From a virus: a stretch of DNA of 39,378 bases. Each line of letters opens with the position of its first letter. Within the stretch, counting starts at the first letter, position 1. Shown in pieces: positions 7,941-23,712 of the stretch. The notes under the pieces are model-generated. The model saw only the letters and a list, made by a program, of their open reading frames with translations, did not search any database and had not been told where the DNA came from. Made by a program: the position numbers and the translations under genes. Location of the stretch: positions 1-39,378 of the IMG/VR virus record IMGVR_UViG_3300042888_002928; one strand, 5' to 3'.

Positions 7941-10295
7941 TCATGGATACACCGTTGTCGTTGTAGTAGCGGATCCACGTTTTATTCTAGATGTTCTTAG
8001 TGTACCAGCGGTACCCGTGCCGCCAGCGCTAGAATATGGTATAACGTCGACATAGTAGTAGTTTGACGTAGTGCCGTTTCTTGAGCTAAAGTCTACAGCG
8101 AGTGTTCCGGTAGTTGCTTGAATGCTTCTGTTAGCAAGCTGCGTAAAAGGGCCAGCCTCAACTGCGGATCTGTACAACATTATACTTAGAGAGGCGGCGT
8201 TCGTGCTGGTAAAGGTAAATCTAATGTACGGCGCTGTCGTGTTTCCTAGCCCGAGCGCTGTTATTTGAGTAACGTTTGGAGTAGCCGCGGCGGTAGCTGA
8301 TCCCGTTGTTGAGCCGGTTCCGTTAAAGGCGTCTGTTTTACTTGATGTAACTGTTACAGTTGAGCTTGCTCCTGCGGATAAACCGCTTACGGTAAACGGA
8401 TAAGATGAGCCTGAGGCTGAACCAGGTGTAACAGTCGCGCTATTTGAAGCAGCAAAAGAGTAAGAGTAAGCAGCGTCACGGTTGCTAACTGATCCGGTAA
8501 ACCCAGTTGCCGTCGAGGTGTTGGAGCCAAATGTTACCGCAGGGGTTCCTGTAATTGTTTTAGTCGTCATCGAGCTACTGCCGCCTGCGTTTGTCGCAAC
8601 GGCGGTAATACTGTAATTTACTGTTCCTGTAAGTCCAGTTGGACTTATTGACGACCCCGAGATAGTTGTCGGGTACCCAGTGGCTGAAACACCAGTGGCT
8701 GAACGAAACACATCTACAGAGTACGAGGTCGCACCGGTCGAGGCAAACGTTGCAGTAAATCCAGTGGTACTTATAGAACTTAGCGTAATAGTTGGAGCAG
8801 GCGGAGCTGCAACTGTTGCAGTTGCGGTAGTTGAGCCGGTTCCGTTAAACGCGGTTGCTTTAGCTGCTGTAATCGTAACAGTTGAGCTTGCGCCTGCTGC
8901 AAGTCCGGATACTGTAAAATTGTAGGTTGAGCCACTTACCGAGCCAAACGTTACCGTCGCAGAGTTGGTTGCTGATGCGGTGTACGTGTACGTATTGTCA
9001 TAGTTTGATATTGAACCTGTGAATCCGGTAGAGTTTGTTGTGTTTGTTCCAAACGTCACCGCAGGGGTTCCGGCAAGCGATTTAGAGAAGGTAGGACCCG
9101 TGCCACCGGAGTTTATACCAGCCACCGACATACTGTGCGAGAGAGTTCCAGTTAAACCTGTGAACGTTGCGGTAGTTGCGGATGTTCCGTTTCTAGGGTA
9201 TGTAAAACCACCAGTATCAGTTAATGCCGCGCCTGAGACCGACCTAAACGCATCAACGTTATATGTTGTTGCTCCTGTTGCAGCCCACGTTGCGGTGAAT
9301 CCTGTTGCAGTAATAGAGCTAAAGGTAATCGTAGGTGTTCCAGGAACGTTAGCCGTAGTAAAGGTAACACTCGCGTAGTTTGTCCCGGTAAAGAAGTAGT
9401 TGTTTGCTCTTACTAAGACTGTATACGATGTATTTGAGGTTAGACTTATAAGGTTGACGGATGTGCTCGCGCCCGTTGATGTCCAGTTAGCGCCGCTGTC
9501 TATAGAATAATCATACGTTTGGATTGCGGACATACCGCTGTTTGCGCTGCTGGGCGCTGTCCAAGATACGGTTGCCGTAGTTCCCGTGATGCTTGACGCA
9601 GAAATTCCTGTCGGCGCCTGTGCGGACGAGCCCTGGTTTGCTACTATCGTAAAGTAACCGGTGCCAAGAGTTCCAGAGGTAGGAGTAGACGAGGCAAGCC
9701 AGACAGTGTGTGTTGAAACACCAAACTCTGTGAACGAAGTTGCAAATGCGGCCGTTGCACCAAAGTAGACTCTGTACTCGTCTCCTGGGTTTCTTGCCGA
9801 GGTAATCGCGCTTAAACCGGTGCGTGACCCATCAAAGTAGTACGCGGTGTTGGAGTACGTATCCGCTGGAAACGCAACAAGCTTAATAAGTGCGTAGTTT
9901 AGACCGTTGGTAAAGTGAACCTCGTACTCGATCTCGAAGTCAGATCCTGCAACTCTTCTTCCACGGTAAAATACATAAAAATTAGAGTCATCAGCTGCCC
10001 AACGAATAGAGTTGGTTACTAGGTCCGCGGGTAAAATTCCAAGTACGCGGCCAACTGTAGAGGATATACTAGAGGTGTCTTGACCGCTGTCAAGTGATAT
10101 GTAGCCGTTTGTTCCGATGTGTACGGTGTTGCCTAGGGAAAAGGTGTATGTGGTTGTCGCGCTTGCAAAAAATTGTCTCCACGCACCGTTGGCATACAGA
10201 AATCCTTTTTGAACTGTTCTCCACGCACCGTTGGCGTACACAAAGCCTTTTTGAAGTGTTCTCCACGCTGAGTTAGCTCTTATATACCCGGACAT
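7941..10295 (-). CDS. Tail fibre / receptor-binding-type protein with repeated fibronectin III-like domains
   Basis: This 784-residue protein is very rich in Ser, Thr, Gly and Ala. Residues 7-43 hold three 14-residue repeats (ANSAWRTLQKGFVY and ANGAWRTVQKGFLY, then ANGAWRQFF). A beta domain (about 48-220) follows, starting TYTFSLGNTVHIGTNGYISL. After that come fibronectin III-like or Ig-like domains: APTGISASSITGTTATVSW opens the first, and paired units built on PTITxSSITxTGFTAT and GTPAVTFGxNTTxxTGFTGS recur twice. The C-terminal ~100 residues form a separate beta tip (NVTQITALGLGNTTAPY onward). Fibronectin and Ig-like repeats in phage tail proteins are generally thought to bind cell-surface sugars. 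The start lies three bases after the preceding stop. Confidence 0.8.
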   Translation of the reverse strand: MSGYIRANSAWRTLQKGFVYANGAWRTVQKGFLYANGAWRQFFASATTTYTFSLGNTVHIGTNGYISLDSGQDTSSISSTVGRVLGILPADLVTNSIRWAADDSNFYVFYRGRRVAGSDFEIEYEVHFTNGLNYALIKLVAFPADTYSNTAYYFDGSRTGLSAITSARNPGDEYRVYFGATAAFATSFTEFGVSTHTVWLASSTPTSGTLGTGYFTIVANQGSSAQAPTGISASSITGTTATVSWTAPSSANSGMSAIQTYDYSIDSGANWTSTGASTSVNLISLTSNTSYTVLVRANNYFFTGTNYASVTFTTANVPGTPTITFSSITATGFTATWAATGATTYNVDAFRSVSGAALTDTGGFTYPRNGTSATTATFTGLTGTLSHSMSVAGINSGGTGPTFSKSLAGTPAVTFGTNTTNSTGFTGSISNYDNTYTYTASATNSATVTFGSVSGSTYNFTVSGLAAGASSTVTITAAKATAFNGTGSTTATATVAAPPAPTITLSSISTTGFTATFASTGATSYSVDVFRSATGVSATGYPTTISGSSISPTGLTGTVNYSITAVATNAGGSSSMTTKTITGTPAVTFGSNTSTATGFTGSVSNRDAAYSYSFAASNSATVTPGSASGSSYPFTVSGLSAGASSTVTVTSSKTDAFNGTGSTTGSATAAATPNVTQITALGLGNTTAPYIRFTFTSTNAASLSIMLYRSAVEAGPFTQLANRSIQATTGTLAVDFSSRNGTTSNYYYVDVIPYSSAGGTGTAGTLRTSRIKRGSATTTTTVYP
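10176..10277 (-). repeat. Three 42-bp tandem repeats at the fibre N-terminus
   Basis: The DNA encodes two complete and one partial 14-residue units at residues 7-40 of the fibre gene, centred on ANGAWRTVQKGFLY. The core CTCCACGC(A/T) recurs on the plus strand near 10177, 10219 and 10261. Such units with a conserved Trp-Arg pair probably anchor the fibre to the tail tip. The near-identical DNA suggests recent unit duplication. Confidence 0.8.
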
Positions 10296-10298
10296 GTT

Positions 10299-11576
10299 TT
10301 AACTGTACGTTAGTACAATCTGCCCTTCTGTGCCACTAATTGAATTTATAGCGGTTAAATCTGGAAAAATAGAACTTTGTGCAAAACCAACTTCTCTTAA
10401 GCTAAAAGCAACAACGAGTGTAGACGTGTTAGTTGGACCTAACGTTGCTGTTTGTATTCCATCCGTGCTTGAAATATAGAAACCACCTGCTGCGTCGTTT
10501 AGAATTAAGCTAAATTGACCATCGGTTCCAATAGGGTACATTAACATTTTAGGATGAGTAGAACTTGCAAAATCAGCCGTTGCCGATCCTCCTGAGCTTA
10601 TGATTACTCCAGGTGAATCGGTAGCTGATCGTATGTGACCTAGTGCGTCGCCTGCCGCGTTATAAAATGATAACGCGTCGTTGGTGGCGTCCATTTCTAC
10701 TCTTCTTCCTGACGCGGATGTTCTAACTGTACTTCCAGTTAGTGTACCGGCAGTAATCATACTTGCATCTAGGAAAGAGACGGTAATTTCTCTCGCATCA
10801 ATCGTTCCCGCTGTAATTTTATTAGCGGAGATATTTAGCAAAGCGCCGTCGCCGAGAGCAAAGCCTTTCCATCCGGCCGTATTTGCGATAGTTCCACCTG
10901 AGCTTGCAGTAGGAACGTTTGTTGCCGTCTTTGCGTACCTAACTGTTAACGCGGTAGGAGCTGCGGTAACTGTGTATGAGCCGTTGAATGTGGCGTCAAC
11001 ACCCGAGACGGTAATTGTTTCTCCAACTACAAAAGAGTGCGGCGCTGATACTGTTAGTGTTGCAACGTTTCCGCTAAGCACCTTATTGGTTACCGTAGCT
11101 GTAGCCGCTGGGCTATAGCGGTATATCTTGTTGTCGTCATCGGTATCAAACCATACGTCTCCTAAAACGTACGTTCCACCTGTCGGCTCGTAGTCCTGGC
11201 GATACACGGTATTTTTTCCACTGGCGCTTACTCGCGCGGTAACATCAACCGCTGTTGCAGTAACAAATTCCTCGGCAACTGGATCATACACGGATTGCGC
11301 TCCTGTACCAGGATCAAACCAGGTCGTGCCTTCCTTAAGATATTCTGTAGGCTCGGTGTCTGAAACAAACGTTACACCGAAGTCCGCCTCGTTAGGAGTT
11401 ACCGCATCCGTTGCGATTGTTTTTGTTCTAACCGCACGGGACTGTATCTTTTGTGTTGTTACTACGTTTCTCTTAAGACGTGTGGCTCCAGGGCGTTTTT
11501 CAACGCGACGAACTCTACTCTCAACGTCAACAAGAACCTTACCGATACTCTTACGGCGACGACGTCTACTAGCCAA
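10299..11576 (-). CDS. Minor tail protein (tail-tip or fibre base) with inserted beta module
   Basis: This 425-residue protein begins with a very basic segment (RRRRRKSIGKVLVDVESRVR) and a coiled coil, then repeated KTIATDAVT / NKITAGTIDA type segments common in phage tail proteins that trimerise. A segment like GTTWFDPGTG and DVWFDTDDDNKIYRYS is typical of minor tail proteins. A 72-residue beta module (160-231) interrupts it, splitting YRYSPAA from GWKGFALGDGAL. The C-terminal third is beta-rich. The start is TTG, supported by GGAGGT eight bases upstream; it overlaps the hub gene by eight bases. Confidence 0.78.
   Translation of the reverse strand: MASRRRRRKSIGKVLVDVESRVRRVEKRPGATRLKRNVVTTQKIQSRAVRTKTIATDAVTPNEADFGVTFVSDTEPTEYLKEGTTWFDPGTGAQSVYDPVAEEFVTATAVDVTARVSASGKNTVYRQDYEPTGGTYVLGDVWFDTDDDNKIYRYSPAATATVTNKVLSGNVATLTVSAPHSFVVGETITVSGVDATFNGSYTVTAAPTALTVRYAKTATNVPTASSGGTIANTAGWKGFALGDGALLNISANKITAGTIDAREITVSFLDASMITAGTLTGSTVRTSASGRRVEMDATNDALSFYNAAGDALGHIRSATDSPGVIISSGGSATADFASSTHPKMLMYPIGTDGQFSLILNDAAGGFYISSTDGIQTATLGPTNTSTLVVAFSLREVGFAQSSIFPDLTAINSISGTEGQIVLTYS
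10884..11099 (-). repeat. Mobile-looking beta module, copy in minor tail protein
   Basis: Residues 160-231 of the minor tail protein. The core is NVATLTVSAPHSF, GETITVSGVDATFNGSYTV, then VRYAKTATNVPTA. Removing it rejoins YRYSPAA to TAGWKGFALG, a normal continuation for this protein type. Confidence 0.75.
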
Positions 11577-13767
11577 TCTTGTCCACCTCCGGCTCCGTAA
11601 CTAGAAGTAGTTCTGTCTCTTCAGGAAAACTTGGTGTATCTGGAACTGTAACCTTAAATCCCTCTATCTTGCGAACGATTACCGTGTCGCGAACCTCAAG
11701 ATCACTTGCCAGTCGCATGCGAATAAACTCGTCCTCGATAACGATAGAACACCAGTCTCCTGGTACAAATTCTCCTATCTTAGGAGAGAGTGATCCGTTT
11801 ACCTTAACCTTTATGTCTGATATAGGAGGGCGCATCTCTGCGAGGTAGCGCTGCGCGTGACTGTACAGAGCTGTTTCATCTCCCTCTTCGTTGCGTGTTT
11901 CCTCCTGGTCAAGGATAGGCCAGCCTGCCTCAAGAAGATCAGTTGCACTTGCTACCGCGTACGGTTGGCTTGCGTCCTCTCCAAGATCCGGGATGTTTCC
12001 TACGACAAAGAAGCGTGTTGCCGCGTCCTCGGCAGACTCCTCCATGTTGATGTCGATGATACTTCCAGGATACTCGAATACAAGTTGATCAGCGCCGTAG
12101 CGACTTGGAGGAGAAACCTCTCCTGCCGAAGGAGGATTTGGAAAGTCAATTGGAATGAGAACAAATGTGCGTGTAAACGTAGGGATGTCTCCAACGTACA
12201 CGAGATCACAGTCAATGCGGTACTCGAAGCCGTCAACCGTGTCGGAGTACTGGTCAAGTTCCTCTCCTACGGAGCGAAGTTCATAACCACGGTAGTTTGT
12301 GTTAGGAACGTTTAGTCCGCTGTAGTCGTTTGTAGAGTAGTCAATTCCGATGTCGGAGTTACCTGGAAACGATCCGTATGTTCCAACTGCAACTATCGCG
12401 CTCTTTGTAACCGTTCCTGAGACTGTAGTTTCCGGCATGTCGGTATCCGCTAGGTCAACGGTAAAGGTAGTCGCGGTAGGAGCCGTGTAGATCATGTGCT
12501 GTGTGTTAAACACGTCGGTAAATCCGGAGATCACCGCTACTCCGCTTGCTACCGCCGCTGAAGGCACGTCCGCCGCTGTCTTGCCGTACGTAAACGTTGT
12601 AGTTGTTGGTACGTCGTCTATGTAGTACACGCCGTTAAACGTTGCATCAACGTTAGTAACAGTAACCATGTCTCCGATGTTTGCTCCGTGGGCGGATGAA
12701 GTAGTTAGTGTTGCAACGTTGCTAGTAAGTTTCTTATTGTTAACTGTAGCCGTAACTCCGTCTACGCCGGTCATTTCTACGATGTCTCCTGCGGTAAAAC
12801 CGTGAGAGGTGGAGGTTGTTACCGTTCCGAGGAAGTCGGTAATTGCCTTCTTGTTGACCGTCTTTGTTACGATAGGAGTTAACGTTGTAGCAACGTTTCC
12901 TGCGGTAACCGCGAATGTAAAAGAAGTACTTGTAGGAGTTGATATAACGTCCCAGAGTCCGTCAAGTGTAGTGTCTACGTTGTAGAGCTCTACGGTCTGT
13001 GTAGGAATAATTCCGTGGGCAGTAGCCGTAACTATAGTTGCAACGTTACCTGTTATTGCCTTTGAATAGATAACAACGCGCTCTGTCTGTGCAGGCTCAA
13101 TGTCGGTATTAGGAAACGTCGTACCTGCAAAGTCCTCGAGAACAGAGTCAATTAGCTGGCGCACGTAGTCGTACGTATCAACTCGAACGTAGACCGTTAC
13201 GTCAGGGTACGTTCCGTTAGGTATGCTTGTTCCGGTGATGGTAAACTGGTCCGGATTTGGCGCGGTAGCAATCGTGTAGTAATCGTTGTATTCGTACATG
13301 TTCGTTGTAGGAAACACAAGGCGTACGGAGGATCCCACAGGGAAGCTGTAGTTCATCGTCTGCAGAACACCCGTGACTGTTCCGCTGGAAACAGTAAGGT
13401 CTACTCCGAAGTCATGCGTATATGTTTTCCAGATATTACGGTGGTAGAAGTAACTTGTAAACTCGTTTGCGTTAATACTTAGCGAGCGCTCGACGACGTT
13501 ATATGCTCTGTTCCAGATAATTCCGCCCCAGACGCACACCTGGTCACGTACGATGTACAGACCTGTTTTTCCAGGCATGGTACTCTCATATAAGTTCATG
13601 CCCGCTGTCTCGGGAATTACAGGAATTGTACCTGAGAAGTTTCCGGCCGCCTTTATAGAACGCTCAAATGAAACTCCCCTAAAAGGAATCTCTGCAAGAA
13701 CCTCGTTGGTTAGGAGGTCGGTAGTGAAGTAGCGGTATTGCGCCGCGTCAGAAGCATAGAGTGCCAT
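11569..13767 (-). CDS. Tail hub / Tal-like minor tail protein with several inserted beta modules
   Basis: This 732-residue protein follows the distal tail protein. The N-terminal domain (about 1-115; FRGVSFERSIKAAGNFSGTI, then DQVCVWGGIIWNRAYN) and the C-terminal part (about 480-720; YELRSVGEELDQYSDTVDGF, ETALYSHAQRYLAEM) resemble the hub proteins of actinobacterial siphophages (Gp37-like of Rhodococcus phage ReqiPepy6). Such hubs close the tail tube and carry fibres. Between them lie beta modules at about 115-195, 232-304 and 344-412, the last apparently nested inside another copy (about 305-343 plus 413-455). GAGGT lies about 10 bases before the ATG. It is enlarged relative to a plain hub by these insertions. 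Confidence 0.8.
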   Translation of the reverse strand: MALYASDAAQYRYFTTDLLTNEVLAEIPFRGVSFERSIKAAGNFSGTIPVIPETAGMNLYESTMPGKTGLYIVRDQVCVWGGIIWNRAYNVVERSLSINANEFTSYFYHRNIWKTYTHDFGVDLTVSSGTVTGVLQTMNYSFPVGSSVRLVFPTTNMYEYNDYYTIATAPNPDQFTITGTSIPNGTYPDVTVYVRVDTYDYVRQLIDSVLEDFAGTTFPNTDIEPAQTERVVIYSKAITGNVATIVTATAHGIIPTQTVELYNVDTTLDGLWDVISTPTSTSFTFAVTAGNVATTLTPIVTKTVNKKAITDFLGTVTTSTSHGFTAGDIVEMTGVDGVTATVNNKKLTSNVATLTTSSAHGANIGDMVTVTNVDATFNGVYYIDDVPTTTTFTYGKTAADVPSAAVASGVAVISGFTDVFNTQHMIYTAPTATTFTVDLADTDMPETTVSGTVTKSAIVAVGTYGSFPGNSDIGIDYSTNDYSGLNVPNTNYRGYELRSVGEELDQYSDTVDGFEYRIDCDLVYVGDIPTFTRTFVLIPIDFPNPPSAGEVSPPSRYGADQLVFEYPGSIIDINMEESAEDAATRFFVVGNIPDLGEDASQPYAVASATDLLEAGWPILDQEETRNEEGDETALYSHAQRYLAEMRPPISDIKVKVNGSLSPKIGEFVPGDWCSIVIEDEFIRMRLASDLEVRDTVIVRKIEGFKVTVPDTPSFPEETELLLVTEPEVDKIG
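12532..12738 (-). repeat. Beta module nested inside another beta module (tail hub)
   Basis: Residues 344-412 of the hub: NVATLTTSSAHGANIGDMVT, NVDATFNGVYYIDD, FTYGKTAADVPSAAV. The flanks TSHGFTAGDIVEMTGVDG (before) and SGFTDVFNTQHMIYTAPTAT (after) together make one complete copy of the same module, so this copy sits within it. Confidence 0.7.
12856..13074 (-). repeat. Beta module, upstream copy in tail hub
   Basis: Residues 232-304 of the hub protein: KAITGNVATIVTATAHGI, VELYNVDTTLDGLWDVISTP, then FTFAVTAGNVATTLTP. It is more divergent than the nested copy but keeps the alanine-histidine-glycine and asparagine-valine-aspartate landmarks. Confidence 0.65.
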
Positions 13768-13815
13768 CTAAGTTATACCTCGCTGAGTAAGTTCGTCGTT
13801 GGGGACATTGTATAC

Positions 13816-15456
13816 CTATCCAAGCCACGCGGACCGGTAATAGATAGCTAATGATGCATCGCTTGTCGCGTCTCCGTCGTCAACGAACGAGAACTCGTTA
13901 ACGCCTGGAGCAAGAAGCGTCCACTCCGCAAGAACGTCGATAAGACTACGTTTTCCAACTACGTCTCCGTTAAGCGCAACCTCGTGATCTCGTGTATCGA
14001 TCTCGAGGATGTCGGGACCAAACGTAACAGTTCCCGAAGCCGCAGCTGATGCAACGTTTGTGTTTGTCTTAGAATACGTAAGTGTTACCGTAGTTGGAAC
14101 GCTAAGAATTGTGTACGTACCGTTAAACGTGGAGTCAACTCCCGATACCACAATCTCATCTCCGGCAAGAAGCCCGTGAGCCGCGGATGTAGTTAACGTT
14201 GCGATATCACTTGTTAGAGCCTTGTTTGAAACGGTAGGTGTAAGAACTCCACGAAGAGACTCGATGATCGTTATAGATTCTAAAGTCGTGTTGTTTTGGA
14301 TGGTAGCGGTTCCTGTAACCGGACCTGTAACCTCGAGGACAACCGGTGCGTATGCGTTTCCGGTGTTGTTAACCTGTCCGATACCGTTCTGTCCTAGTAC
14401 TCCCGAGTTCGCGCCAAGAATAGTTACGGAGCGGTATCCAAGTTCGTGCCCCTCGTACCACTCGTACTTTAGAGGGTCCGCGGCCCTTAATCCGATAGAG
14501 AACTCCGTGCGCCCACGTGAATTAACGGTGGTGATCTCCGGACGCCCTGAGAGACGAACGTAGGACACCTTGGTAGGGCTCTCGTCCGTGCGTAGCCAGT
14601 CGCCTACGTACACGAGATCGGTTTCCTTAATAAGCTTCGCGCGTGCCTGCGCTACGTACGAAGGATCCGGCACGAGGAAGACTCCGTTAAGTGTAATTTG
14701 GCGTGCCTGGTAGCGACCGCGTACGTCGTAGGATCCGTCTCCCCAACCGCGTGGAATATCACGCACCTCAGGCTCGGGGTGTACCCACCAACCTTCGATG
14801 TCCGTGCAGATCCATACCACGCCGTTTTCATCTACGGTGTTAAGAATTAAACCGCCGATCGAGACATCCGCGTTAAGCTTAAGTCCGGTGATCTTAGGAA
14901 AAGGAAGAGGTGTAAGTCCGAGGTTAACGTACTTGTTTTCAGCTGCCTGCGTGATGTCGTCAAAGTACTCGCCGACGTAGGACGCGGCCTCAAACATCAC
15001 CGCGTCAACATAGAAGATCTTGCTTGCCGTTCCTGCGGTAGGTTGAACTACCGAGATCAACGCGCCGAGGGAAAGAGAAGGAGCTACAAAGACTCCCATA
15101 AGACGAACCCAGCCGTCGCCGTCGATAACCTGCGCGGATACAGTAGAGCTCGTCGAGATTAAACTTCCGCCGCTTGCTGCCGTGTACCACGCGACGTTTA
15201 CCTGGAACACTCCTGTTTCCTGCGCTGCTGGAACCTTTACGTACGCGGCAACCGCATACGACGTCGCGGCGGTAACTGATATACGGCTGGCAATCACCGC
15301 ACCGGAGTTGGATGACGCGGCCTTTGTAACCTGAAGACACGTCGAGCCAAAGAACGCGTCGGTTGTAATACGCGCTACCGTTGCAGATCCTGTTCCTGAC
15401 CATCCTGTTGCGTCTGTCTTAAAGGAAGGATTAACTACTAGGTTATTTCTCGCCAT
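13816..15456 (-). CDS. Distal tail protein (Dit-like) with N-terminal carbohydrate-binding-like domain
   Basis: This 546-residue protein begins MARNNLVVNPSFKTDATGW. I chose ATG at 15456 because GGAGGT lies eight bases upstream; an upstream in-frame start would sit inside the tape measure gene. Residues 1-165 resemble a jelly-roll carbohydrate-binding module (NPSF..TGW, then GWVRLMGVFVAPS). Residues from about 180 match the siphovirus distal tail family (ITGLKLNADVSIGG, DIPRGWGDGSYDVRGRYQAR, ITLNGVFLVPD). Near the C-terminus a beta module (408-479) splits the usual ESITIIESLRG from DILEIDTRDHEVALNG. Dit forms the ring at the tail tip; the sugar-binding domain suggests a role in adsorption. It follows the tape measure stop by one base. 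Confidence 0.84.
   Translation of the reverse strand: MARNNLVVNPSFKTDATGWSGTGSATVARITTDAFFGSTCLQVTKAASSNSGAVIASRISVTAATSYAVAAYVKVPAAQETGVFQVNVAWYTAASGGSLISTSSTVSAQVIDGDGWVRLMGVFVAPSLSLGALISVVQPTAGTASKIFYVDAVMFEAASYVGEYFDDITQAAENKYVNLGLTPLPFPKITGLKLNADVSIGGLILNTVDENGVVWICTDIEGWWVHPEPEVRDIPRGWGDGSYDVRGRYQARQITLNGVFLVPDPSYVAQARAKLIKETDLVYVGDWLRTDESPTKVSYVRLSGRPEITTVNSRGRTEFSIGLRAADPLKYEWYEGHELGYRSVTILGANSGVLGQNGIGQVNNTGNAYAPVVLEVTGPVTGTATIQNNTTLESITIIESLRGVLTPTVSNKALTSDIATLTTSAAHGLLAGDEIVVSGVDSTFNGTYTILSVPTTVTLTYSKTNTNVASAAASGTVTFGPDILEIDTRDHEVALNGDVVGKRSLIDVLAEWTLLAPGVNEFSFVDDGDATSDASLAIYYRSAWLG
14020..14235 (-). repeat. Beta module, copy in distal tail protein
   Basis: Residues 408-479 of the Dit-like protein: KALTSDIATLTTSAAHGL, DEIVVSGVDSTFNGTYTI, LTYSKTNTNVASAA. 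It lies between two segments that are normally adjacent in distal tail proteins. Confidence 0.75.
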
Positions 15457-15457
15457 G

Positions 15458-18400
15458 TTATGCACCTCCGCGACGTAGTTGGAATGCAATCTGGCGTGAC
15501 ACCATCGACGCAAGCTCTGATTCGTTCATTCCTGGTGAAGGATAGACGTTTACCGTCATTCCCGCTCCCTGTCCTCCAGAAAGAAGTTTAATCATTGCCT
15601 TGTCTCTTTGTGAAAGTCCGTCAGGGTCAAGAGGCTCTACGCGCTCCGCGCGACCAGCCTCTCCGATACGCGCGATAGTTCCACCTGGTGAAGGCATAAC
15701 AACTCCGCCTTTAGCAAGGACTGGAATACGCGGAATTTGGCTGAATGAAAAAGTTTGTCCACCAATTTTTGGTACCCATTTGGGGATATTAACTTTAAAT
15801 TTAGAAGCCATTCCGTTCCACGCGTCAATTATTCCATTGATAAGTCCTCTAAATGGTGAAATAATTGCTTTTAGAATATTTAAGAAGAAACTTTGGAATG
15901 ATTTTAATCCGCCTTTAAGTCCATCTAAAGCAGTGCCCCATTTGCCAGTAAATATTCCTATAAAAACACCAACTATAGTTTTAAATAAATTAAATATAAA
16001 AACAAAAACATCTTTAAGGGCACCTAGGGCGTAAATAATTGTGTTTATGGCGCCACCAAGAGTCCCTACAAGTGCTCCGCCAATAGCACCTAGTATTGGT
16101 ATTAAAGTAACCGAGAGTACGTCTCCTATAACTTTAAATGCCTTGCCTAAACTCTCAGTGCTACCAAATACTTTATCAAAGGTTGCTTTTATGTCATCAA
16201 AAGCTCCCTTCACTGAACCCATTAAAGCTTCTCCTAGCGCTTTAATAGAGTTTCTAAAAGACTCACTGTTGTTGTACGCAAGGACAAGGATTGCTACAAG
16301 CGCGGCGACCGCCGCAACCGCTATAAGAATAGGAGCCGCGGCAGTTCCAAATGCCATGCTAAACACAAGCATTCCACCGCGAATTGCCTTAATAAGAGGA
16401 GCTAAGGCCTTCATAGGATTCATTATAAATGCGAGTGCCTTGCCGACCGCCATGAATCCACCTGCAATAACCTTACCTGCAAATGAAGCAATACTGCCAA
16501 GAAGACCAAAAGCGGAGGCAACTGCAAATATTCGTGCGGCTGCGTTAAACAAGTCCTGCATTCCCGGAAGAGACATGATCTTTGTAACGGACTCAAGCGC
16601 AATACGTAAGACGTCAAAGAATGCCTTGATTGCTCCAGATGAAACTGTTACGTTTGCAAATTCAATAAGTGACTTCACAAGCTTTGCAAGTGAGGGAGCC
16701 GCCTTATTTGTATTTTTTAGAAGTTCACCAAAGTCAGGAGCTGCCTCCTTGATGGTGTCCCAGAAAAGTTTAACGTTTGGATCAGCGCCTGCCTTAAGAA
16801 TTTCCTTTGTGAAAGCTCCAAGTGCACCAAGTACCGCACGAGAGTTTACCGCAACGTCCTTAAAGTACTTAGCTAGGTAATTTTGCCCCTTTGCTGATCC
16901 TGAGAATTTCTCAAACGCGGCAGTAGAGTCTCTAAACCAGTTAAGTAGGTAGTCTCCTGCTCCACCTGGAGCAAATATAGCTCTTACTGAGTTTGATATG
17001 CCACTAAACACGTTGCCAAGTATCTCGCCCCAGCGTGCGGCAATGTCTCCGGCCTTATCAAAGAACTTTTGAAGTTCTCCTGAGGCTTGTTTTGTATTTA
17101 GAAACTTGTCAAACTCCGCTGTTTTCTTTGTTAGAAAATCAGTAAATTTACGGATGATGGGATCAGCGGCAGTTAGTATAGAAAGAATAGATCCGTAGGT
17201 ACTACCGATGCTCTTTCCGATACCCTGGATAACGTATCCGGCCTGCTTGAATATCGCCGCTAGGTCTGCCTTGTTGGACCTGTCTACTATAGCGCTAATA
17301 ATAGAGTTGAACGCAATTCCAACGTCGGTACCTAGTCCGGCAAGAAGTCCTTTTAGCTCGGGAAATAGCTGTGTCTTAAGTGTAGTTAGCCCTGCCTGAA
17401 TTTGAGGTAGAAGAGTTTGAGCTGCCGCATCACGAAGTTGTTTAAGTGCAGGAACAAAATCGTTAACCATAAACTTAACGAATGCCTGCGCGGCAGGTGA
17501 TAGGTTGTCAAGCGCTGTCTGAAAAGCGTCTACCGCGGAGCTTCCGCCGGTCTTTGCCTTATTAAGAGCGTCCTCGGCGTCCTTCTGATTTCGCAGCGCG
17601 TCGACTACGCCCTTCTGGGCATTTTTGTATGTCTCTGTCTGTTGGTACTGTTCTGTTCCGGCCTTGGCTGCTGCCTCTGATAGACGGTTTTGCTCTTGGG
17701 CAAGATCTCTATTTTGATCCTTTGCCTTACGAAGGTTTAACTCGGCCTCGGCAAATGCGAGCTGCGCCTCGCGGCGTGCTCGTGAATTAGGTGGAAGATC
17801 CTGTGTGCGCGAGAGAGTTTCACGGGCCTTTTCAAGCTCTATTGCAGCTCTCTTCTCCGCAAGCGCCGCATCCTCCGCGTCAAAAGATAGCTGTTGAAGT
17901 TCTTCCTTCGCATCGCGTGTAGCCTTGGTAAATCTTTCCTGCGCCTCAACTGACGCTTCAATAGCCTTTGCAAGAGATTTCTGCGCGTTTGTAAGCTGAT
18001 CTGTGTTTGTCTTCGCACCGGTTGTTGTTTTCATTCCGGCAGAGATCGCCTTGCCTACGCCGGAGAATGCGGCTGCCGCCGTAAGTGCTGACAAGCCTAT
18101 CGCGGAGAATATACCTGGCAATACTACTAGAGAAGGAATTGCTCCTGCGACTGTTCCGGCTAAAGCAGCAAGACCTCCGGCAAGTGAACCTATGCTTGAA
18201 ACAAGAATAGAGAGAGCTGTACCGACGGTATAGCTTGTTCTAACGAGAGACTGGAACTGTTGACGAGCGGCAATAGCCTGCTTACCAAAGTCTCCCATAG
18301 CGTTAGCTAACGCACTGCCGGTTCCCTTAGAAAATCCTCTAGTAAAACTTTGACCGACGTTCGCGCCGTCAGCCTCAAGGTTGATTCCTCGTGTTGCACG

Positions 18401-18469
18401 ACGAACCTCGGACTCGAAACCTTTAGTTATCGCATGGACAACTACGTAGGCATCACCGATTACTGCCAC
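15458..18469 (-). CDS. Tape measure protein
   Basis: This 1003-residue protein sets tail length and is likely ejected with the DNA. The start is GTG with an ideal AGGAGGTGA seven bases upstream. The N-terminus (GDAYVVVHAITKGFESEVRR, SFTRGFSKG) is typical of actinophage tape measures. A hydrophobic region at about 75-145 is followed by a long charged coiled coil (about 155-310; AKAIEASVEAQERFTKATRD onward). The middle is helical with repeated amphipathic units. Further hydrophobic stretches (GGMLVFSMAFGTAAAPILIA, LVAILVLAY, and a long one near VFVFIFNLFKTIVGVFIGIF) could cross the host membrane. The C-terminus has Gly-rich GGVVMPSPGGTIARIGEAG and ends in basic residues. At roughly 1.5 angstroms per residue the tail would be about 150 nm. 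Confidence 0.95.
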   Translation of the reverse strand: MAVIGDAYVVVHAITKGFESEVRRATRGINLEADGANVGQSFTRGFSKGTGSALANAMGDFGKQAIAARQQFQSLVRTSYTVGTALSILVSSIGSLAGGLAALAGTVAGAIPSLVVLPGIFSAIGLSALTAAAAFSGVGKAISAGMKTTTGAKTNTDQLTNAQKSLAKAIEASVEAQERFTKATRDAKEELQQLSFDAEDAALAEKRAAIELEKARETLSRTQDLPPNSRARREAQLAFAEAELNLRKAKDQNRDLAQEQNRLSEAAAKAGTEQYQQTETYKNAQKGVVDALRNQKDAEDALNKAKTGGSSAVDAFQTALDNLSPAAQAFVKFMVNDFVPALKQLRDAAAQTLLPQIQAGLTTLKTQLFPELKGLLAGLGTDVGIAFNSIISAIVDRSNKADLAAIFKQAGYVIQGIGKSIGSTYGSILSILTAADPIIRKFTDFLTKKTAEFDKFLNTKQASGELQKFFDKAGDIAARWGEILGNVFSGISNSVRAIFAPGGAGDYLLNWFRDSTAAFEKFSGSAKGQNYLAKYFKDVAVNSRAVLGALGAFTKEILKAGADPNVKLFWDTIKEAAPDFGELLKNTNKAAPSLAKLVKSLIEFANVTVSSGAIKAFFDVLRIALESVTKIMSLPGMQDLFNAAARIFAVASAFGLLGSIASFAGKVIAGGFMAVGKALAFIMNPMKALAPLIKAIRGGMLVFSMAFGTAAAPILIAVAAVAALVAILVLAYNNSESFRNSIKALGEALMGSVKGAFDDIKATFDKVFGSTESLGKAFKVIGDVLSVTLIPILGAIGGALVGTLGGAINTIIYALGALKDVFVFIFNLFKTIVGVFIGIFTGKWGTALDGLKGGLKSFQSFFLNILKAIISPFRGLINGIIDAWNGMASKFKVNIPKWVPKIGGQTFSFSQIPRIPVLAKGGVVMPSPGGTIARIGEAGRAERVEPLDPDGLSQRDKAMIKLLSGGQGAGMTVNVYPSPGMNESELASMVSRQIAFQLRRGGA

Positions 18470-18489
18470 TTACTCACCTCCTGCCTTTA

Positions 18490-18954
18490 CTAGTGTGTTA
18501 TTGGTCCGTCAAGCGTAGTTCCGAACGGCTGCTCGGCCCTAGCATCAACTGACGTTGCTGGGATAAAAGGCTTAACTACTTTTTGCTTCTGCAATGGATC
18601 AAACGGTACAATCTCTTCTTCCTCGAGGTCATCGAAGTTTCTAGTGATTCCCTGACCGCCTGCCATACTACTGTTACTGCGCTGCGAAGCGTACGGATAG
18701 CTTGCGTTATAGAAGTCGCGATAGATAATCTCGCGTGACCTGTCACGACCCTCGGCCTGCTCGGCCGAGGCGTAGTACATATCCTCCTCAAAGAAATAGT
18801 GCAGGACGTCTAGCATGTCGCCTGCCTCCATTTCCTTTAGGTTAAGTCCGTTCACGATAGCTTTTCCATTTACATAGTGCCAGAGGTCAATCCCCCAGGT
18901 TAGGAGACTTCTGGCTCCGCTTCCGGGCGTGCTGCGTAGTTTTCTACTAGCCAT
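18490..18954 (-). CDS. Tail assembly chaperone, downstream frame (GT-type, probable -1 frameshift product)
   Basis: This frame overlaps the end of the preceding chaperone frame by 55 bases in the -1 phase and lies directly before the tape measure gene, the classical arrangement of lambda G/T chaperones. The domain proper probably begins around LLTWGIDLWHYVNGKAI, where the upstream stop is passed. Helical content and the KEMEAGDMLDVLHYFFEEDM segment are typical. The ATG at 18954 has no convincing Shine-Dalgarno, which favours production by frameshifting as an extension of the upstream protein. A TGA in this frame at 18976-18978 means the shift must occur after that point. The acidic tail (NFDDLEEEEIVPFDPLQ) and C-terminal end are not conserved-looking. 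Confidence 0.78.
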   Translation of the reverse strand: MASRKLRSTPGSGARSLLTWGIDLWHYVNGKAIVNGLNLKEMEAGDMLDVLHYFFEEDMYYASAEQAEGRDRSREIIYRDFYNASYPYASQRSNSSMAGGQGITRNFDDLEEEEIVPFDPLQKQKVVKPFIPATSVDARAEQPFGTTLDGPITH

Positions 18955-19238
18955 CCGCTGATCTCGCCAAGTGTATCAACCGTGACGATGCGATCTGGAT
19001 CAACTAGAAGAGTATTAAATCGCTCATAGCTTTCAGGCAGAAGAACCTGCTTGAAGAAATCGTTAATTGTTTTAGCCGCGTCAGCTCCGTTTTCAGAAGC
19101 CGAGCTTGCAACTAGGTCTAGTAGAACCTTACCCTGCAGCTCTGCACGGCACTCGAAATCCTCGCCGTGAAGCTTAAAGGATACTGGTTCCTTCTCTCCG
19201 GTATTTTTACCGGACCCAAAGTCCTTGAACTTAGTCAT
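18900..19238 (-). CDS. Tail assembly chaperone, upstream frame (G-type)
   Basis: This 112-residue protein starts MTKFKDFGSGKNTGEKEPVS. I chose ATG at 19238, which has GGAGGAAG eight bases upstream, over an earlier in-frame start 12 codons up. The sequence SFKLHGEDFECRAELQGKVL and the helical remainder match siphophage G-type chaperones, which coat the tape measure during tail assembly. It ends with an acidic tail (ARPEAEPEVS) where the overlap with the GT frame lies. Both products in a fixed ratio are normally needed for tail formation. Confidence 0.85.
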   Translation of the reverse strand: MTKFKDFGSGKNTGEKEPVSFKLHGEDFECRAELQGKVLLDLVASSASENGADAAKTINDFFKQVLLPESYERFNTLLVDPDRIVTVDTLGEISGWLVENYAARPEAEPEVS

Positions 19239-19296
19239 TATTCTTCCTCCGTAGTGTGTTGGTGTCTTTATCAAGACGTTATGTCTTAATTCTGTA

Positions 19297-19680
19297 TTAT
19301 CTTATCAAATAAAGGTTATCGGTTAGATATTTATTTGGCCTTGTTCCAGGGTGTCGTACCATGTGTGTATAGATAACGCGGCTGCCTGATGTAAACCTAA
19401 GCACCCTTGCGGTATTAGGAACTATCATGTGTGGACGCGTCCCGTTGTGGTGAGCGAGTGCGTAGCTCAATGGAGAGCCAACCTCTATGCTTTGCCCTGC
19501 CATAGTTCTACTGTGGTTGCGCACGTGGATAGACTGCTTTAGTCTACCTGTATTTACACCTACCTGCGACTTTGCCGCCGTCATTACGCGACGTGCACGC
19601 TTGTTAAGATCTCTTCCAACCGGACCAAAAGGATCGTTAAGAAGAAAATCTAGCGATTTTTTGCGAAAAATAATCTCCAC
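19297..19680 (-). CDS. HK97 gp10-like head-tail joining (neck) protein
   Basis: This 127-residue basic protein carries the pattern of HK97 gp10-like / minor neck proteins: an N-terminal helix RDLNKRARRVMTAAKSQVGV, then TGRLKQSIHVR, a beta strand IEVGSPLSYALAHHNGTRPH, and a C-terminal HPGTRPNKYLTDNLY. The start is GTG, one base overlapping the previous gene's TAG. It sits between the tail terminator-like gene and the chaperones, where the neck genes lie in siphophages. Confidence 0.8.
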   Translation of the reverse strand: MEIIFRKKSLDFLLNDPFGPVGRDLNKRARRVMTAAKSQVGVNTGRLKQSIHVRNHSRTMAGQSIEVGSPLSYALAHHNGTRPHMIVPNTARVLRFTSGSRVIYTHMVRHPGTRPNKYLTDNLYLIR

Positions 19681-20183
19681 TATGGAACCACCATCGAGAC
19701 CTGCATGCGCATTGTCTGGAAGCCACCTTCGGCAGTCGCAGCCTCAGCCGTGGCAATTACACCCATGCCGAACTCGCCTGGTTCCCACTGGTCAAGCTTA
19801 TTGATAAGCTCCATAAACATCCATGCGTCAACGGCAGCGATCTCCGAGCCTTCCTGGATCTTATCCGCGGTAGGTGCCTTTCCGTTACTTCCTACGACAG
19901 GAATCTCTCGGGAAAGGGAAACTGTTAATACCGCTGTTCTTGGCTGCGTGCAGCGTTGCGGTTGGCTGGCCTCGTCACCTGGAAGACCTAGGTACATCTG
20001 GACAAACGAGACGCAGAGCTGGTCACAGTCAATTGCGGGATCACCCATCGTCCAAAACTGACGAGTAGGAAGAGGTACGTTGTAATCAGCGTAGGTCTCG
20101 ACGATCTTGTCAAGAACTGCATCCATAAATGTCTTTAGGCTTAAGGCATCGTTGTTGACATTTGCAATACTTACTATCGGCAT
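19680..20183 (-). CDS. Tail terminator / tail completion-like protein
   Basis: This 167-residue protein starts MPIVSIANVNNDALSLKTFM. A helix DAVLDKIVETYADYNVPLP is followed by PTRQFWTMGDPAIDCDQLCV, and a strand PRTAVLTVSLSREIPV is typical of the tail terminator family in actinophages, which caps the tail and joins it to the head. The position, after the head-tail adaptor and before the neck protein, agrees. No good ribosome binding site is visible near the ATG. Confidence 0.68.
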   Translation of the reverse strand: MPIVSIANVNNDALSLKTFMDAVLDKIVETYADYNVPLPTRQFWTMGDPAIDCDQLCVSFVQMYLGLPGDEASQPQRCTQPRTAVLTVSLSREIPVVGSNGKAPTADKIQEGSEIAAVDAWMFMELINKLDQWEPGEFGMGVIATAEAATAEGGFQTMRMQVSMVVP

Positions 20184-20239
20184 GTGTGCACCGTATGTTT
20201 CATATGTGTAGTCGTCATTTGTTCGTGTCTATCCTTCTT

Positions 20240-21628
20240 CTAGCTACCAAGAGTGTAGGTAGGTGTTACCGGACTTCCAAGTCGAAGGACAAGGTTACCT
20301 GAGGCAATATATATCGTTTCATCTATGTTTGGATCAGGAATAGACGGGCGAGTTGCGTAAAGATCCCACGTGCCTGGATCTACGAATCCTGCGTATGCGT
20401 ACGCGTCGGCATAGGAAACACTTAGGGTAAGGGTGTCGTGTGTTTCGTTGGTTACCGTAGCCGTTCCGGTGTCCGCGCCGTAGGCAACGTTCGCAGCTAC
20501 CTTTTGATACATAAACGTAGTCTCGCTAGGTACATCACTGATGTAGTATCCGCCGTTAAACGTGGCGTTAATTCCGGCGATTGTTACAAAGTCATTTACA
20601 GCAAATCCGTGCGCGGTCACGGTCGTAATCGTAACCATGTTACTTTCAAGTTTCTTGTAGACGATGTTCTTTGTTACGTCCGTGACAGTAGGATCGTTTA
20701 ACGCTACGCCACCTGAGCCTAGGTCTACTGTTTTTGTTCCGGTATAGTTTGATATGTGTAGTGAAGGTATCCACTCTGGGTTTGTCGCAAGGAAACCCGC
20801 GTTGATGTAGTCAATGTTAACATCGAGTGTCGCGCCTTCGCTACCTGTAATAAACATATCAAGAGGTCCTGCAGCTAGTGCATAAGGCTTAGGAACAAGA
20901 CGACGTGCACGTGGAATATCCGGTGAGAAGACACGTGCCTTTGCGCGTGCCTTGTCGGGGTTAGACGATTTCAAGAAGAGATCAACTACGTACAAACCTG
21001 TACGCATGTTGTCGATAAAGTCCTGGTTATCAAGAATCGTGTATGAAACGCCCTGGCGTGCTACGGACGTAATACGTGCTGGAAGATCACAGTCGTCACC
21101 GTTCCATAATTTTACAAACTCCGTGGCAAGAACTCGCGCGGCAGCTTTTCCTGAGGCAGGAGGAGGTGATCCGTAGCTGTACGTAACCTCGATGTTGCAA
21201 GGTGTCCACGCGGTACCCGCACGTGCCTGAATCGTAGAGTGGTCTACGAGGTAGTAATTAGATGGGTTAACGATACTTCCAGCGCGGTCACGTACCTCGT
21301 GGATAATCGCAACGGGGCGACCACGAAGACGAAGACGCGTGGAGGGTGACATACCGTCGGTGGTTAACTCCGCGTAGTCATCAAATTCATCAAAGGGAAC
21401 GTTATATACTTCTCCGCCGACAAGTTCAGGCGAGTAGTTGCGTGCTGAGGCTCCGAGGCGGTATGCACGGGAGGCGCAGACATAGCGCTCTGTTACGGTT
21501 GTTACTCCGCCATACTTACGACCTGATAGCGACCACAGAAGCTGAGATGCAGTTTTAACGGCCTCGTACGCGTACTCGTTGTCCGCGTACTGTCCTAGCT
21601 CATCTACTGAAACCCAGAGGTTTGACAC
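20240..21628 (-). CDS. Head-tail adaptor (connector) with long C-terminal beta extension
   Basis: The N-terminal ~210 residues (WVSVDELGQYADNEYAYEAV, TASQLLWSLSGRKYGGV, then LPARITSVARQGVSYTILD) match helical head-to-tail adaptors of actinophages, which ring the portal. The protein then continues to 462 residues, about twice a usual adaptor, with a beta-rich extension beginning near PYALAAGPLDMFITGSEGAT. A beta module (321-392) lies inside that extension. The start is GTG with ACAGGT a few bases upstream. The extension probably decorates the neck, but its role is unknown. Confidence 0.78.
   Translation of the reverse strand: MSNLWVSVDELGQYADNEYAYEAVKTASQLLWSLSGRKYGGVTTVTERYVCASRAYRLGASARNYSPELVGGEVYNVPFDEFDDYAELTTDGMSPSTRLRLRGRPVAIIHEVRDRAGSIVNPSNYYLVDHSTIQARAGTAWTPCNIEVTYSYGSPPPASGKAAARVLATEFVKLWNGDDCDLPARITSVARQGVSYTILDNQDFIDNMRTGLYVVDLFLKSSNPDKARAKARVFSPDIPRARRLVPKPYALAAGPLDMFITGSEGATLDVNIDYINAGFLATNPEWIPSLHISNYTGTKTVDLGSGGVALNDPTVTDVTKNIVYKKLESNMVTITTVTAHGFAVNDFVTIAGINATFNGGYYISDVPSETTFMYQKVAANVAYGADTGTATVTNETHDTLTLSVSYADAYAYAGFVDPGTWDLYATRPSIPDPNIDETIYIASGNLVLRLGSPVTPTYTLGS
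20453..20668 (-). repeat. Beta module, copy in head-tail adaptor
   Basis: Residues 321-392 of the adaptor: KKLESNMVTITTVTAHGF, NDFVTIAGINATFNGGYYI, FMYQKVAANVAYGADTGT. It is placed between DPTVTDVT and NETHDTLTLSVSYAD. Confidence 0.72.
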
Positions 21629-21674
21629 TTTTACCTGTCCTGTCTAGTCGTCGTTAGGCTATCTTAATAAAGGA

Positions 21675-21715
21675 GCGGCATGCCTGTGTATACGTTTTAC
21701 ACATCGGCATGCCGC
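21675..21715 (-). terminator. Strong hairpin after the major tail protein gene
   Basis: A perfect 10-base inverted repeat (GCGGCATGCC / GGCATGCCGC) encloses a second one (TGTGTA / TACACA), giving a long two-part stem. On the transcribed strand it is followed by TCCTTTATT, a weak U-tract. It lies in the 102-base gap after the major tail protein gene, so it probably ends or attenuates the capsid/tail-tube transcript. Confidence 0.7.
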
Positions 21716-21730
21716 ACACCCTTATTCTAA

Positions 21731-22780
21731 TTAAGAGGTTGGATCCTCAGTTGAAGCAATGATGAAGTCAACCGGTAGATCTTCGTTGTAAACTTCATTT
21801 CCAGGAACGTTATAAGCTGTTGTTGATCCCTGTGATGCAAAGTCTGTTACCGCACGTGAGTTAGCTGTTACCAACGCTGTGCCTGTGTCAGCGGCAGATG
21901 TGATTGTACCGCTTGTTGTTGTTGTGTATGTGAAGGTTGTTGTTGTTGGTACAGTTGTGATTGTATATGTACCATGCAAGGCAGAGTTTCCGTTTGTACC
22001 GGAGATTGTTACTGAATCGCCAACCGCAAGGGTATGATCCGTTGAGGTAGTGATTGTAGCAGTCGTGCCAGTGCGCTGTGTGTTAGAGATTGTCTTTGAG
22101 ATATCGCCGTGCCATGTGTAGAAGCCCTTCCGGCCTGTTGGTGCCCACGCGTTGCGTGCATATGAGTATGGGCGCTCTGCGGCTGTTGGGAATTCCCAGC
22201 GCTCGTCGAGGCCGGAACCGAATGTTGTGTTTCCAAGGCCGTAACCTTCAAATGTGCTTGCAAGCAAACCGTTTTCAATAACGCGGTCACCTGATAGGCG
22301 AAGCTTGGCATATGGGAAAACCCAGTGGAAGTAAGGAAGTGTTGAAGCCTTCTTACCGTCGATAATTGCGTGTGACCAAGTTTCAATCGCTACGCCGTTA
22401 CCTGCAGGATCATCACCTGTTGAAGGTGAAGACCAGCCGACTGACTTACGATCTGGTGATGCGAATGTTCCTAGGTTCTTACGAAGTAGGAGACCGCCTG
22501 AGATAAGTTGTGTTAGCTCTGGGTCTGGCTCACAGATCGCAAGTTCCATTGTGATACGTTTTAATGTATTTGGAGCCTTGTAGGTAACGCAGACTGTTCC
22601 GTCAGCGCCCTTTTCTGTAATTTCGTCGCCTTCTTCGTACTCCGGTGTGAATGATAAGCGCATGAAAGCGGATGTTGTGTAGCTATCGCCTGCTTCATTC
22701 AGGAGATTACCAGACGCATCAAGACGAGTTACTCGAATTGAAACGCCCTGAATACTCGCAGCGTATTCTTGAGTTGCCAT
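21731..22780 (-). CDS. Major tail (tube) protein with C-terminal beta module
   Basis: The N-terminal ~230 residues (IQGVSIRVTRLDASGNLLNE, FMRLSFTPEYEEGDEITEKG, TVCVTYKAPNTLKRITMELA, CEPDPELTQLISGG) match major tail proteins of actinobacterial siphophages. Residues 231-304 are an Ig-like beta module (ATITTSTDHTLAVGDSVTIS, then HGTYTITTVPTTTTFTYT) inserted before the C-terminal strand YNEDLPVDFIIAS. AAGGAG lies 12 bases before the ATG. Its place before the adaptor genes rather than beside the chaperones is unusual but is seen in some actinophages. Confidence 0.83.
   Translation of the reverse strand: MATQEYAASIQGVSIRVTRLDASGNLLNEAGDSYTTSAFMRLSFTPEYEEGDEITEKGADGTVCVTYKAPNTLKRITMELAICEPDPELTQLISGGLLLRKNLGTFASPDRKSVGWSSPSTGDDPAGNGVAIETWSHAIIDGKKASTLPYFHWVFPYAKLRLSGDRVIENGLLASTFEGYGLGNTTFGSGLDERWEFPTAAERPYSYARNAWAPTGRKGFYTWHGDISKTISNTQRTGTTATITTSTDHTLAVGDSVTISGTNGNSALHGTYTITTVPTTTTFTYTTTTSGTITSAADTGTALVTANSRAVTDFASQGSTTAYNVPGNEVYNEDLPVDFIIASTEDPTS
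21869..22090 (-). repeat. Beta module, copy in major tail protein
   Basis: Residues 231-304 of the major tail protein. It keeps GDSVTISG and HGTYTITTVPTTTTFTY but has a Ser-Ala-Leu insertion before HGTY in place of the usual FNG, so it is the most divergent of the five single copies. Confidence 0.65.
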
Positions 22781-22833: not shown

Positions 22834-23712
22834 TTACGCGGTTAGATCGATCCTGACTGCTGCGTGAACAGATGAGTCAAAGTATACTGCCACTGGGCGA
22901 ATTGCCTTAAGAAGCATGTTGTTTGCGTTGCCTGATACGTCGTAGCCCTGGGCTAGGTTATCGTTAACAACGTCAACATCACCCAGAAGAACCCTGACGT
23001 CTCCTGTCGCGTACATCCATTTGTTTGTAGCGCTAGGTGTTTCTGTGTCTCCAGCCGCGTCGGTTGGGCCTGCTCCCGAGTAACCGGAACCGATTATTAC
23101 CGGAGTTCCACCAACAGTTCTAAGGAAGCTGTCCCCACTGCCGGCTGAAGGATAAATTAAGCTTGAGCTCGCTACGAGTGCGGCAACGTCGCGGGTCATG
23201 TGAATGACTCCTTGGATTCCACACGCGGAGGTATCTCCAATTGTCTGTTCAAGAAGCGCGAGCGCGCGAGTTGCAGATAGTGCTGTACCTGAGTTAAGTA
23301 TAGCAGCGGCAGGATCTACTAGTGCTCGATTTGAGTGGCTTTCAGCAATGCGAATCGCGCCGTCCCACAGCTCCTTTTCAAGAGCCTTTTGGGTAATGCA
23401 CTCTACCTGACGTTTTAATCTTTCAATGTGGTCTATACCAAGTAGACCTAATGTTGAGCGATAATCCTCAACCTCGATAAAAAATGGTTTAACTTCTAGA
23501 TAACGAGCCGGTGTTGCATTATTTACAAGTGTGTATGATGTTGTGTCTGTGTCGTCCCAGTTTTTAGCGGAGTATATTCCACTGTCCCAGTACTGAGAAA
23601 AACCGCGTACCCACTGATCTTCGTCTGAGCTAGTATCAGGCTTAACACAGCTGAGTAGACCAAAATTAGCGCCCATAACCATAGGTGCTTCAAAAACTCC
23701 CGTAAAGGCCAT
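22834..23712 (-). CDS. Second HK97-fold capsid protein (pentamer-type candidate)
   Basis: This 292-residue protein lies directly after the larger capsid gene. It shows HK97-fold landmarks: a spine-helix-like region KALEKELWDGAIRIAESHSN, the helix ALALLEQTIGDTSACGIQGV, the A-domain strand and loop VGGTPVIIGSGYSG, and a final strand pair KAIRPVAVYFDSSVHAAVRI. Actinophages with two capsid proteins assign one to hexamers and one to pentamers; this smaller protein, without a scaffold domain, could be the pentamer form. A decoration or minor head role cannot be excluded. AGGAAG lies about 10 bases before the ATG. Confidence 0.66.
   Translation of the reverse strand: MAFTGVFEAPMVMGANFGLLSCVKPDTSSDEDQWVRGFSQYWDSGIYSAKNWDDTDTTSYTLVNNATPARYLEVKPFFIEVEDYRSTLGLLGIDHIERLKRQVECITQKALEKELWDGAIRIAESHSNRALVDPAAAILNSGTALSATRALALLEQTIGDTSACGIQGVIHMTRDVAALVASSSLIYPSAGSGDSFLRTVGGTPVIIGSGYSGAGPTDAAGDTETPSATNKWMYATGDVRVLLGDVDVVNDNLAQGYDVSGNANNMLLKAIRPVAVYFDSSVHAAVRIDLTA

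Follow-up and report, generated by a model that had tools for sequence, protein, structure and literature searches.

A predicted seven-stranded β-barrel recurs as an old, optional module in the virion proteins of a phage clade

Module copies and their carrier genes

The window analysed here is the whole of a 39.4 kb virus record, IMG/VR IMGVR_UViG_3300042888_002928 (39,378 nt). Seven related modules of ~72 residues are borne by five of its virion genes, all on the minus strand, which encode the major tail protein (MTP), the head-tail adaptor (HTA), the distal tail protein (Dit), the tail hub (with three copies) and a tip protein. The genes, the modules within them and the associated features are as follows.

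22834–23712, minus strand: gene of a phrog_779 protein (E 3e-22), adjoining the major capsid gene; no module here
23029–23064, minus strand: empty insertion site in the phrog_779 protein, GSGYSGAGP / TDAAGDTETPSA / TNKWMYATG, from the alignment of occupied with empty homologues
21731–22780, minus strand: MTP gene, carrier 1 (phrog_792 major tail protein, E 2e-19)
21869–22093, minus strand: module in MTP (HMM E 1e-24), in the loop between GFYTWH and AVTDF..QGST..YNVPG
20240–21628, minus strand: HTA gene, carrier 2 (phrog_783, E 1e-36)
20243–20905, minus strand: appended C-terminal β-sandwich domain of HTA (putative fold), host of the module; absent in the HTAs of Microbacterium phages
20450–20662, minus strand: module in HTA (HMM E 6e-32), between two strands of the C-terminal domain
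13816–15513, minus strand: Dit gene, carrier 3 (phrog_5577, E 4e-19; phrog_33; PF22768 SPP1_Dit C-terminal domain)
15076–15447, minus strand: N-terminal CBM_4_9 carbohydrate-binding domain of Dit (PF02018, E 3e-8, over the gathering score)
14020–14235, minus strand: module in Dit (HMM E 4e-32), between IIESL and DILEIDTRDHEVALNG
11569–13767, minus strand: tail hub/minor tail protein gene, carrier 4 (matched by phrog_1885 over two stretches, E 4e-30)
12856–13074, minus strand: hub module 1, complete (HMM E 7e-29)
12757–12861, minus strand: hub module 2, N-terminal half (outer, interrupted; 33 bits)
12529–12756, minus strand: hub module 3, complete, nested in module 2 (100 bits)
12400–12528, minus strand: hub module 2, C-terminal half (31 bits)
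10299–11576, minus strand: tip/minor tail protein gene, carrier 5 (phrog_1330 and others)
10881–11096, minus strand: module in tip (HMM E 2e-30), between DDDNKIYRY and WKGFALGDGAL

A profile hidden Markov model (HMM) was built from the six intact copies and run on all open frames and on the six-frame translation of the window. Five module-bearing ORFs were retrieved from the latter, all on the minus strand, with E-values from 4e-25 to 2e-65; no further ORF in this translation scored above threshold, and no other gene of the window, that of the tape measure included, had the module in the profile search. When each intact copy was left out in turn and scored with a profile built from the remaining five, it gave 41–90 bits, compared with a best score of 6–12.5 bits for shuffled controls (999 per copy). 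The initial annotation had recognised a repeated module in five virion proteins at 10884–22090; the repeat is borne out by these scores, its span (10881–22093) agrees, and the identities given to the five carriers hold in the PHROGs and Pfam matches. The carriers had also been called adjacent, which is right insofar as they belong to one structural cluster, but the tape measure, chaperone-like and neck genes, none of them with a module, separate Dit from HTA.

The adaptor core of HTA comprises residues 1–244, of which residues 16–243 match positions 20–253 of the 254-position phrog_783 profile, and the module sits outside this core in the appended C-terminal domain, which is itself a decoration. 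In Dit, the module is located inside the C-terminal (galectin-like) domain, and the match to PF22768 (profile positions 37–97) starts only where the module ends. The CBM_4_9 domain at the other end of Dit is missing from many relatives and forms a second optional decoration on this protein.

Predicted fold of the module

The structure of the module was predicted with AlphaFold2 from 45 module sequences, four rows from annotated records being left out, which gave a seven-stranded model with a pLDDT of 96.5. In fold searches, the model was matched to the barrel of the phi92 endosialidase (4hiz_C, Z 10.1) and to the endoNF barrel (residues 425–507 of 3gvj_A, Z 9.2), and the two alignments, over 76 residues with an rmsd of 2.1–2.2, place the module in this barrel fold. 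The FCCH domains of UBA1 and UBA6, aligned over 72–78 residues with Z scores of 9–10.8, share the fold as well. The next matches were chains of FCWL1 (a head-to-tail interface entry; Z 8.3) and the T1 tail-tube protein, to residues 17–96 of which the module aligns with a Z score of 7.7. The initial annotation had compared the module to the Ig-like domains of phages, but its nearest matches are the endosialidase barrel and the E1 FCCH domain, and no Ig domain is among the 50 fold matches listed for it. A BppA-like carbohydrate-binding module (CBM) fold is likewise absent from the matches listed.

At the sequence level, 5 of 49 modules match the PF12195 profile weakly (best E 2e-4), and the PF16190 E1_FCCH profile gives 19 bits for the hub (E 0.0015) and 15.1 bits for MTP (E 0.025), short of its gathering score of 29.5. 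No significant match to a PDB entry was found by sequence. The module matches the phrog_584 major tail protein at 2e-4 (PHROGs), and its matches to viral models, namely baseplate J-like, baseplate wedge and tail sheath proteins, indicate that it is widespread in phage virions. A link between the FCCH fold and phages was not found in the open-access literature.

The conserved residues of the module (His23, Gly28, Gly42 and the threonines of strand 2) are found mostly in strands and tight turns and look largely structural. In the model of the C-terminal region of HTA (pLDDT 83), the barrel emerges from a β-sandwich, and the module flanks, which form the two sandwich halves, align to Ig domains at Z 6.6–7.0; these alignments are suggestive only of an Ig-like β-sandwich in this domain.

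Insertion, nesting and kinship among relatives

About 230 related loci, many of them overlapping, were reduced to distinct proteins and scanned with an iterated profile and the flanks of the carriers. Phages of actinobacteria from freshwater and soil make up the relatives found; they include DSL-LC01 from Dishui Lake (129 kb), Microbacterium phages of 186–195 kb and many metagenomic contigs. The density of modules, attributed by the initial annotation to one phage, is a trait of this whole clade.

The modules are true insertions with clean boundaries, as had been surmised from the sequence of the window: module-less relatives share the same flanks in HTA, Dit, MTP and tip, and the module is not an intrinsic part of these families. 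At one loop of the HTA C-terminal domain the module is present in 64 of 102 relatives and missing from 38. The HTAs of Microbacterium phages end at ~250 residues, without the C-terminal domain; among 165 annotated phage records, no HTA homologue covers 80% of the protein of the window in one place, and the homologues listed outside the Microbacterium/DSL-LC01 group match residues 1–244 at most. Dit carries the module in 57 of 76 relatives and lacks it in 19. MTP has it in 90 of 93, and of the three scored without it, DSL-LC01 is a clean module-less case at the same place, the other two having a different or divergent insert there. Both states occur in tip, where L058, L070 and others are without the module. 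Nearly all hub relatives have at least one module, with up to about a dozen, and since at least one is retained in this way, the hub module(s) may be structural. In L106, L124 and L119, the MTP seemed to have an insert of 450 bases, considered as a possible intron; it proved to be an extra match to a module in the upstream phrog_779 gene.

A sixth carrier was found in that gene. The phrog_779 protein of the window has 292 residues and no module, and among 88 homologues with both flanks a module was detected in 12, between GSGYSGxGP and TNKW.YATG; this count refers to detected modules, as at least one homologue counted as empty (L177) holds a divergent insert at the same place. Its position had suggested that phrog_779 might be a second capsid protein, a candidate that was rejected after a profile search of solved structures gave no match. 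Collagen-like (GATGATG) fibre proteins of relatives (L232, L233 and L234) carry the module in their N-terminal half.

The state of each site is polymorphic. By parsimony, the minimum number of changes of module state is eight on the Dit tree, three for MTP and two for HTA, and five combinations of occupied and empty sites are seen among the 37 distinct phages in which all four genes are present. In one pair of Dits, L153 without and L138 with the module, the flanks differ by 0.015 changes per site; a short linker stands in the DNA of L153 in place of the module segment, and neither a duplicated target nor a repeat is visible in the DNA at this junction. The module-less Dits L153 and L159 are identical over about the first 1 kb of the gene, upstream of the site, and past the site L153 matches the module-bearing L065 at 96–100% towards the 3′ end. 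This switch of identity indicates that recombination runs through the sequence flanking the site, and that phages can exchange the module in this way. Either gain or loss of the Dit module is compatible with the tree.

The module is also inserted in itself. At 12400–12861 in the hub, module 2 is split, its two halves flanking the complete module 3, and the halves joined score 66.8 bits, compared with 33 and 31 bits apart. In most relatives of the hub this outer module is unbroken and has a short loop at the nesting place; the C-terminal half of module 2 aligns with the unbroken form, ADSDM and TYG.FPGN being in common. Nested hubs were seen in 8 of the 54 relatives compared and the inner module is absent from the other 46, a distribution that needs at least two changes. 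The same half-full-half pattern, together with the joined scores, suggests nesting in the Dit of five relatives and in one MTP. The break falls at model position 30–36, which is the loop between strands 3 and 4. The hub of L170 has another insertion in its second module; it follows SIPT, in a loop other than this one, and might be an independent nesting. No report of self-nested domains was found in the open-access literature.

The copies in the window are 28–57% identical in amino acids and 42–60% in DNA. Similarity at the codon level amounts to a weak excess, 182 of 417 codons being identical where 155 were expected, and no pair of copies falls below p 0.036 for shared codons (before correction for 15 comparisons). 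A recent burst of copying in this phage was considered and rejected, the copies being divergent and their use of the same codons only slightly above expectation. Across phages, the modules mostly group by carrier site, with 24 label changes against ~150 when labels are shuffled. Similarities of 70–76% nevertheless link different sites, Dit with tip and MTP with tip, and the phrog_779 module of L115 is 69% identical to Dit modules and at most 41% to the listed modules of its own site. A tree of the modules has 15 label changes, its starred branches forcing at least three for Dit and at least three for HTA, and hints at jumps from site to site. A single origin is not rejected by AU tests for the phrog_779 (p 0.34) or the HTA (p 0.69) modules, and a phylogeny of 72 alignment columns has too little power to establish such transfers.

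The initial annotation had gone further and proposed a mobile cassette. An intein, a transposon or a cassette with its own recombination signals was considered and rejected: the insert encodes the barrel alone, with no recombinase or nuclease in its coding content, and no terminal repeat or target duplication is seen at the L153/L138 junction, which can be read in DNA. Given old, divergent copies, inheritance grouped by site and single origins that are not rejected, "mobile cassette" is too strong a term; the module is an old, optional and recombining domain.

Candidate function and comparison with known systems

The carrier families form rings or trimers along the particle. The explanation that we favour, as somewhat probable, is that the module is a plug-in barrel which decorates the virion surface, probably binding glycans. 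The repeated unit would be a self-contained seven-stranded β-barrel of endosialidase-barrel/E1-FCCH-like fold, which a clade of actinobacterial phages carries in putatively solvent-exposed loops of ring- or trimer-forming proteins: the neck adaptor, tail tube, Dit, hub and tip, joined in relatives by collagen-like fibres and a protein encoded next to the capsid gene. The core fold of each carrier would close around the insert, so that gain or loss need not disturb assembly. A barrel in an outer loop of every ring or trimer subunit would give many copies projecting from neck, tube and tip, and these could bind host envelope glycans weakly and avidly along the particle before the tip engages. 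Inheritance would run mostly site by site, and homologous recombination via the conserved flanks, together with in-frame gains or losses, would reshuffle which sites are occupied. Surface display and sugar binding had already been mentioned in the initial annotation; both are compatible with the fold and the positions, sugar binding itself being what we infer. Avid, low-affinity binding of envelope glycans is favoured by three likenesses taken together, namely the endosialidase barrel, the sugar-binding decorations of lactococcal 936 phages and the CBM_4_9 domain in Dit.

The endosialidase barrel (PF12195; endoNF ~425–507, phi92 257–339) has the same fold over the full module and is also a phage tail protein domain of ~80 residues inside a larger chain. 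It belongs, however, to a polysialic-acid-binding enzyme, whereas the module, at ~20% identity, is carried by five non-enzymatic virion proteins. The K1F enzyme binds polysialic acid at three sites, of which this barrel is one, and the barrel is also a hotspot of host discrimination (PMC12632334). The E1 FCCH domain (PF16190), similar in fold and in weak profile matches to hub and MTP, sits in the E1 enzyme, whereas the carriers of the module are tail and neck proteins without E1 catalytic domains. In its established role, the FCCH domain is not known to bind sugars although it shares the fold, so that a function cannot be read from the fold by itself.

In lactococcal 936 phages, sugar-binding modules occur on Dit, MTP and the neck, and two of them, one from the tail and one from the neck, bound host cells (PMC6669499). 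These evolved Dit, TpeX and neck-passage CBMs decorate the same three levels as here, and the extra domain in Dit, MTP and a neck protein that marks CBM decoration in siphophages is present in the window; they too are inserted inside Dit, and avidity through ring multiplicity has been proposed for them, as we propose here. The 936 modules are BppA-like, though, and all three levels are decorated in one of 113 phages, in contrast to a single barrel family at five or six carriers. Residues 16–94 of the T1 tail-tube protein gp41 form a domain that extends outside the tube and was called Ig-like by its authors (PMC11945409). It aligns over the full module and is likewise inserted in the β-sandwich of a tail-tube MTP, but at another point and in a single carrier. 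Ig-like domains and the domain mosaicism of phages also involve optional surface domains common to unrelated virion proteins; unlike Ig-like phage domains, the module has a barrel as its nearest fold and is present in several copies per virion, nested in each other. Decoration with optional domains is thus already known from Ig-like domains, 936 CBMs and domain mosaicism (PMC10684548). As far as our searches show, one barrel family at five carriers of one virion, the identity of its fold and its repeated self-nesting are new.

A broader form of the favoured explanation, to which we would give slightly less than an even chance, makes the barrel a universal plug-in. It would have a preferred loop in at least six unrelated carrier folds and would use its own strand 3–4 loop as a further docking site, so that nested modules would form branching, adhesive structures on hub, Dit and MTP; recombination among phages would reassort their presence. 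Self-nesting at one loop is unusual and would guide the choice of sites that tolerate inserted domains.

What else could the modules do? They might be structural spacers or stabilisers within or between stacked rings, or braces of the virion, with no host ligand. The conserved residues at strands and tight turns, the hub with its nearly constant module and the E1 FCCH domain, the same fold in a protein-interaction setting, all agree with such a role. We nevertheless judge it unlikely, as the module is repeatedly absent from Dit, HTA, MTP and tip in relatives, where assembly proceeds without it, and its occurrence in loops of five unrelated folds, with self-nesting, speaks against a single specific interface. 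Somewhat less likely again is a neutral or near-neutral spread, in which a fold with adjacent termini is tolerated in loops and kept by mutation bias and recombination. Near-identical alleles that differ in the module, and modules inserted in modules, are what this would predict, and domain mosaicism is widespread among phage tail proteins (PMC10684548); against it stand a core conserved across great divergence, inheritance mostly by site and, in the window, confinement of the module to virion proteins. That the modules are intrinsic to each family or convergent is highly improbable despite their near-constancy in MTP and hub, given contiguous flanks in module-less homologues of HTA, Dit, MTP, tip and phrog_779, which already refute intrinsic origin for four carriers, and leave-one-out scores that exclude convergence.

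With this module, the general idea of decoration domains becomes a concrete, testable system with one barrel fold and defined boundaries. Four carriers offer natural alleles with and without the module, and it occurs in cultured Microbacterium phages, among them Zooman, A3Wally and Big4, which have it in MTP, Dit and hub and grow on Microbacterium foliorum NRRL B-24224. Through the module, a large number of unannotated phage structural proteins are connected with the sugar-binding barrel of the endosialidases and with the outward-facing domain of the T1 tail-tube protein.

Other parts of the window contain further long reading frames. The product of the ORF at 7941–10295, which has fibronectin type III domains and internal repeats rich in Thr/Ser, is probably a further protein of the tail surface. 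Two very long ORFs, at 25972–30597 (1541 aa) and 31593–38987 (2464 aa), lie upstream of the capsid gene and may be large or fused head proteins; a relative has capsid maturation proteases annotated there.
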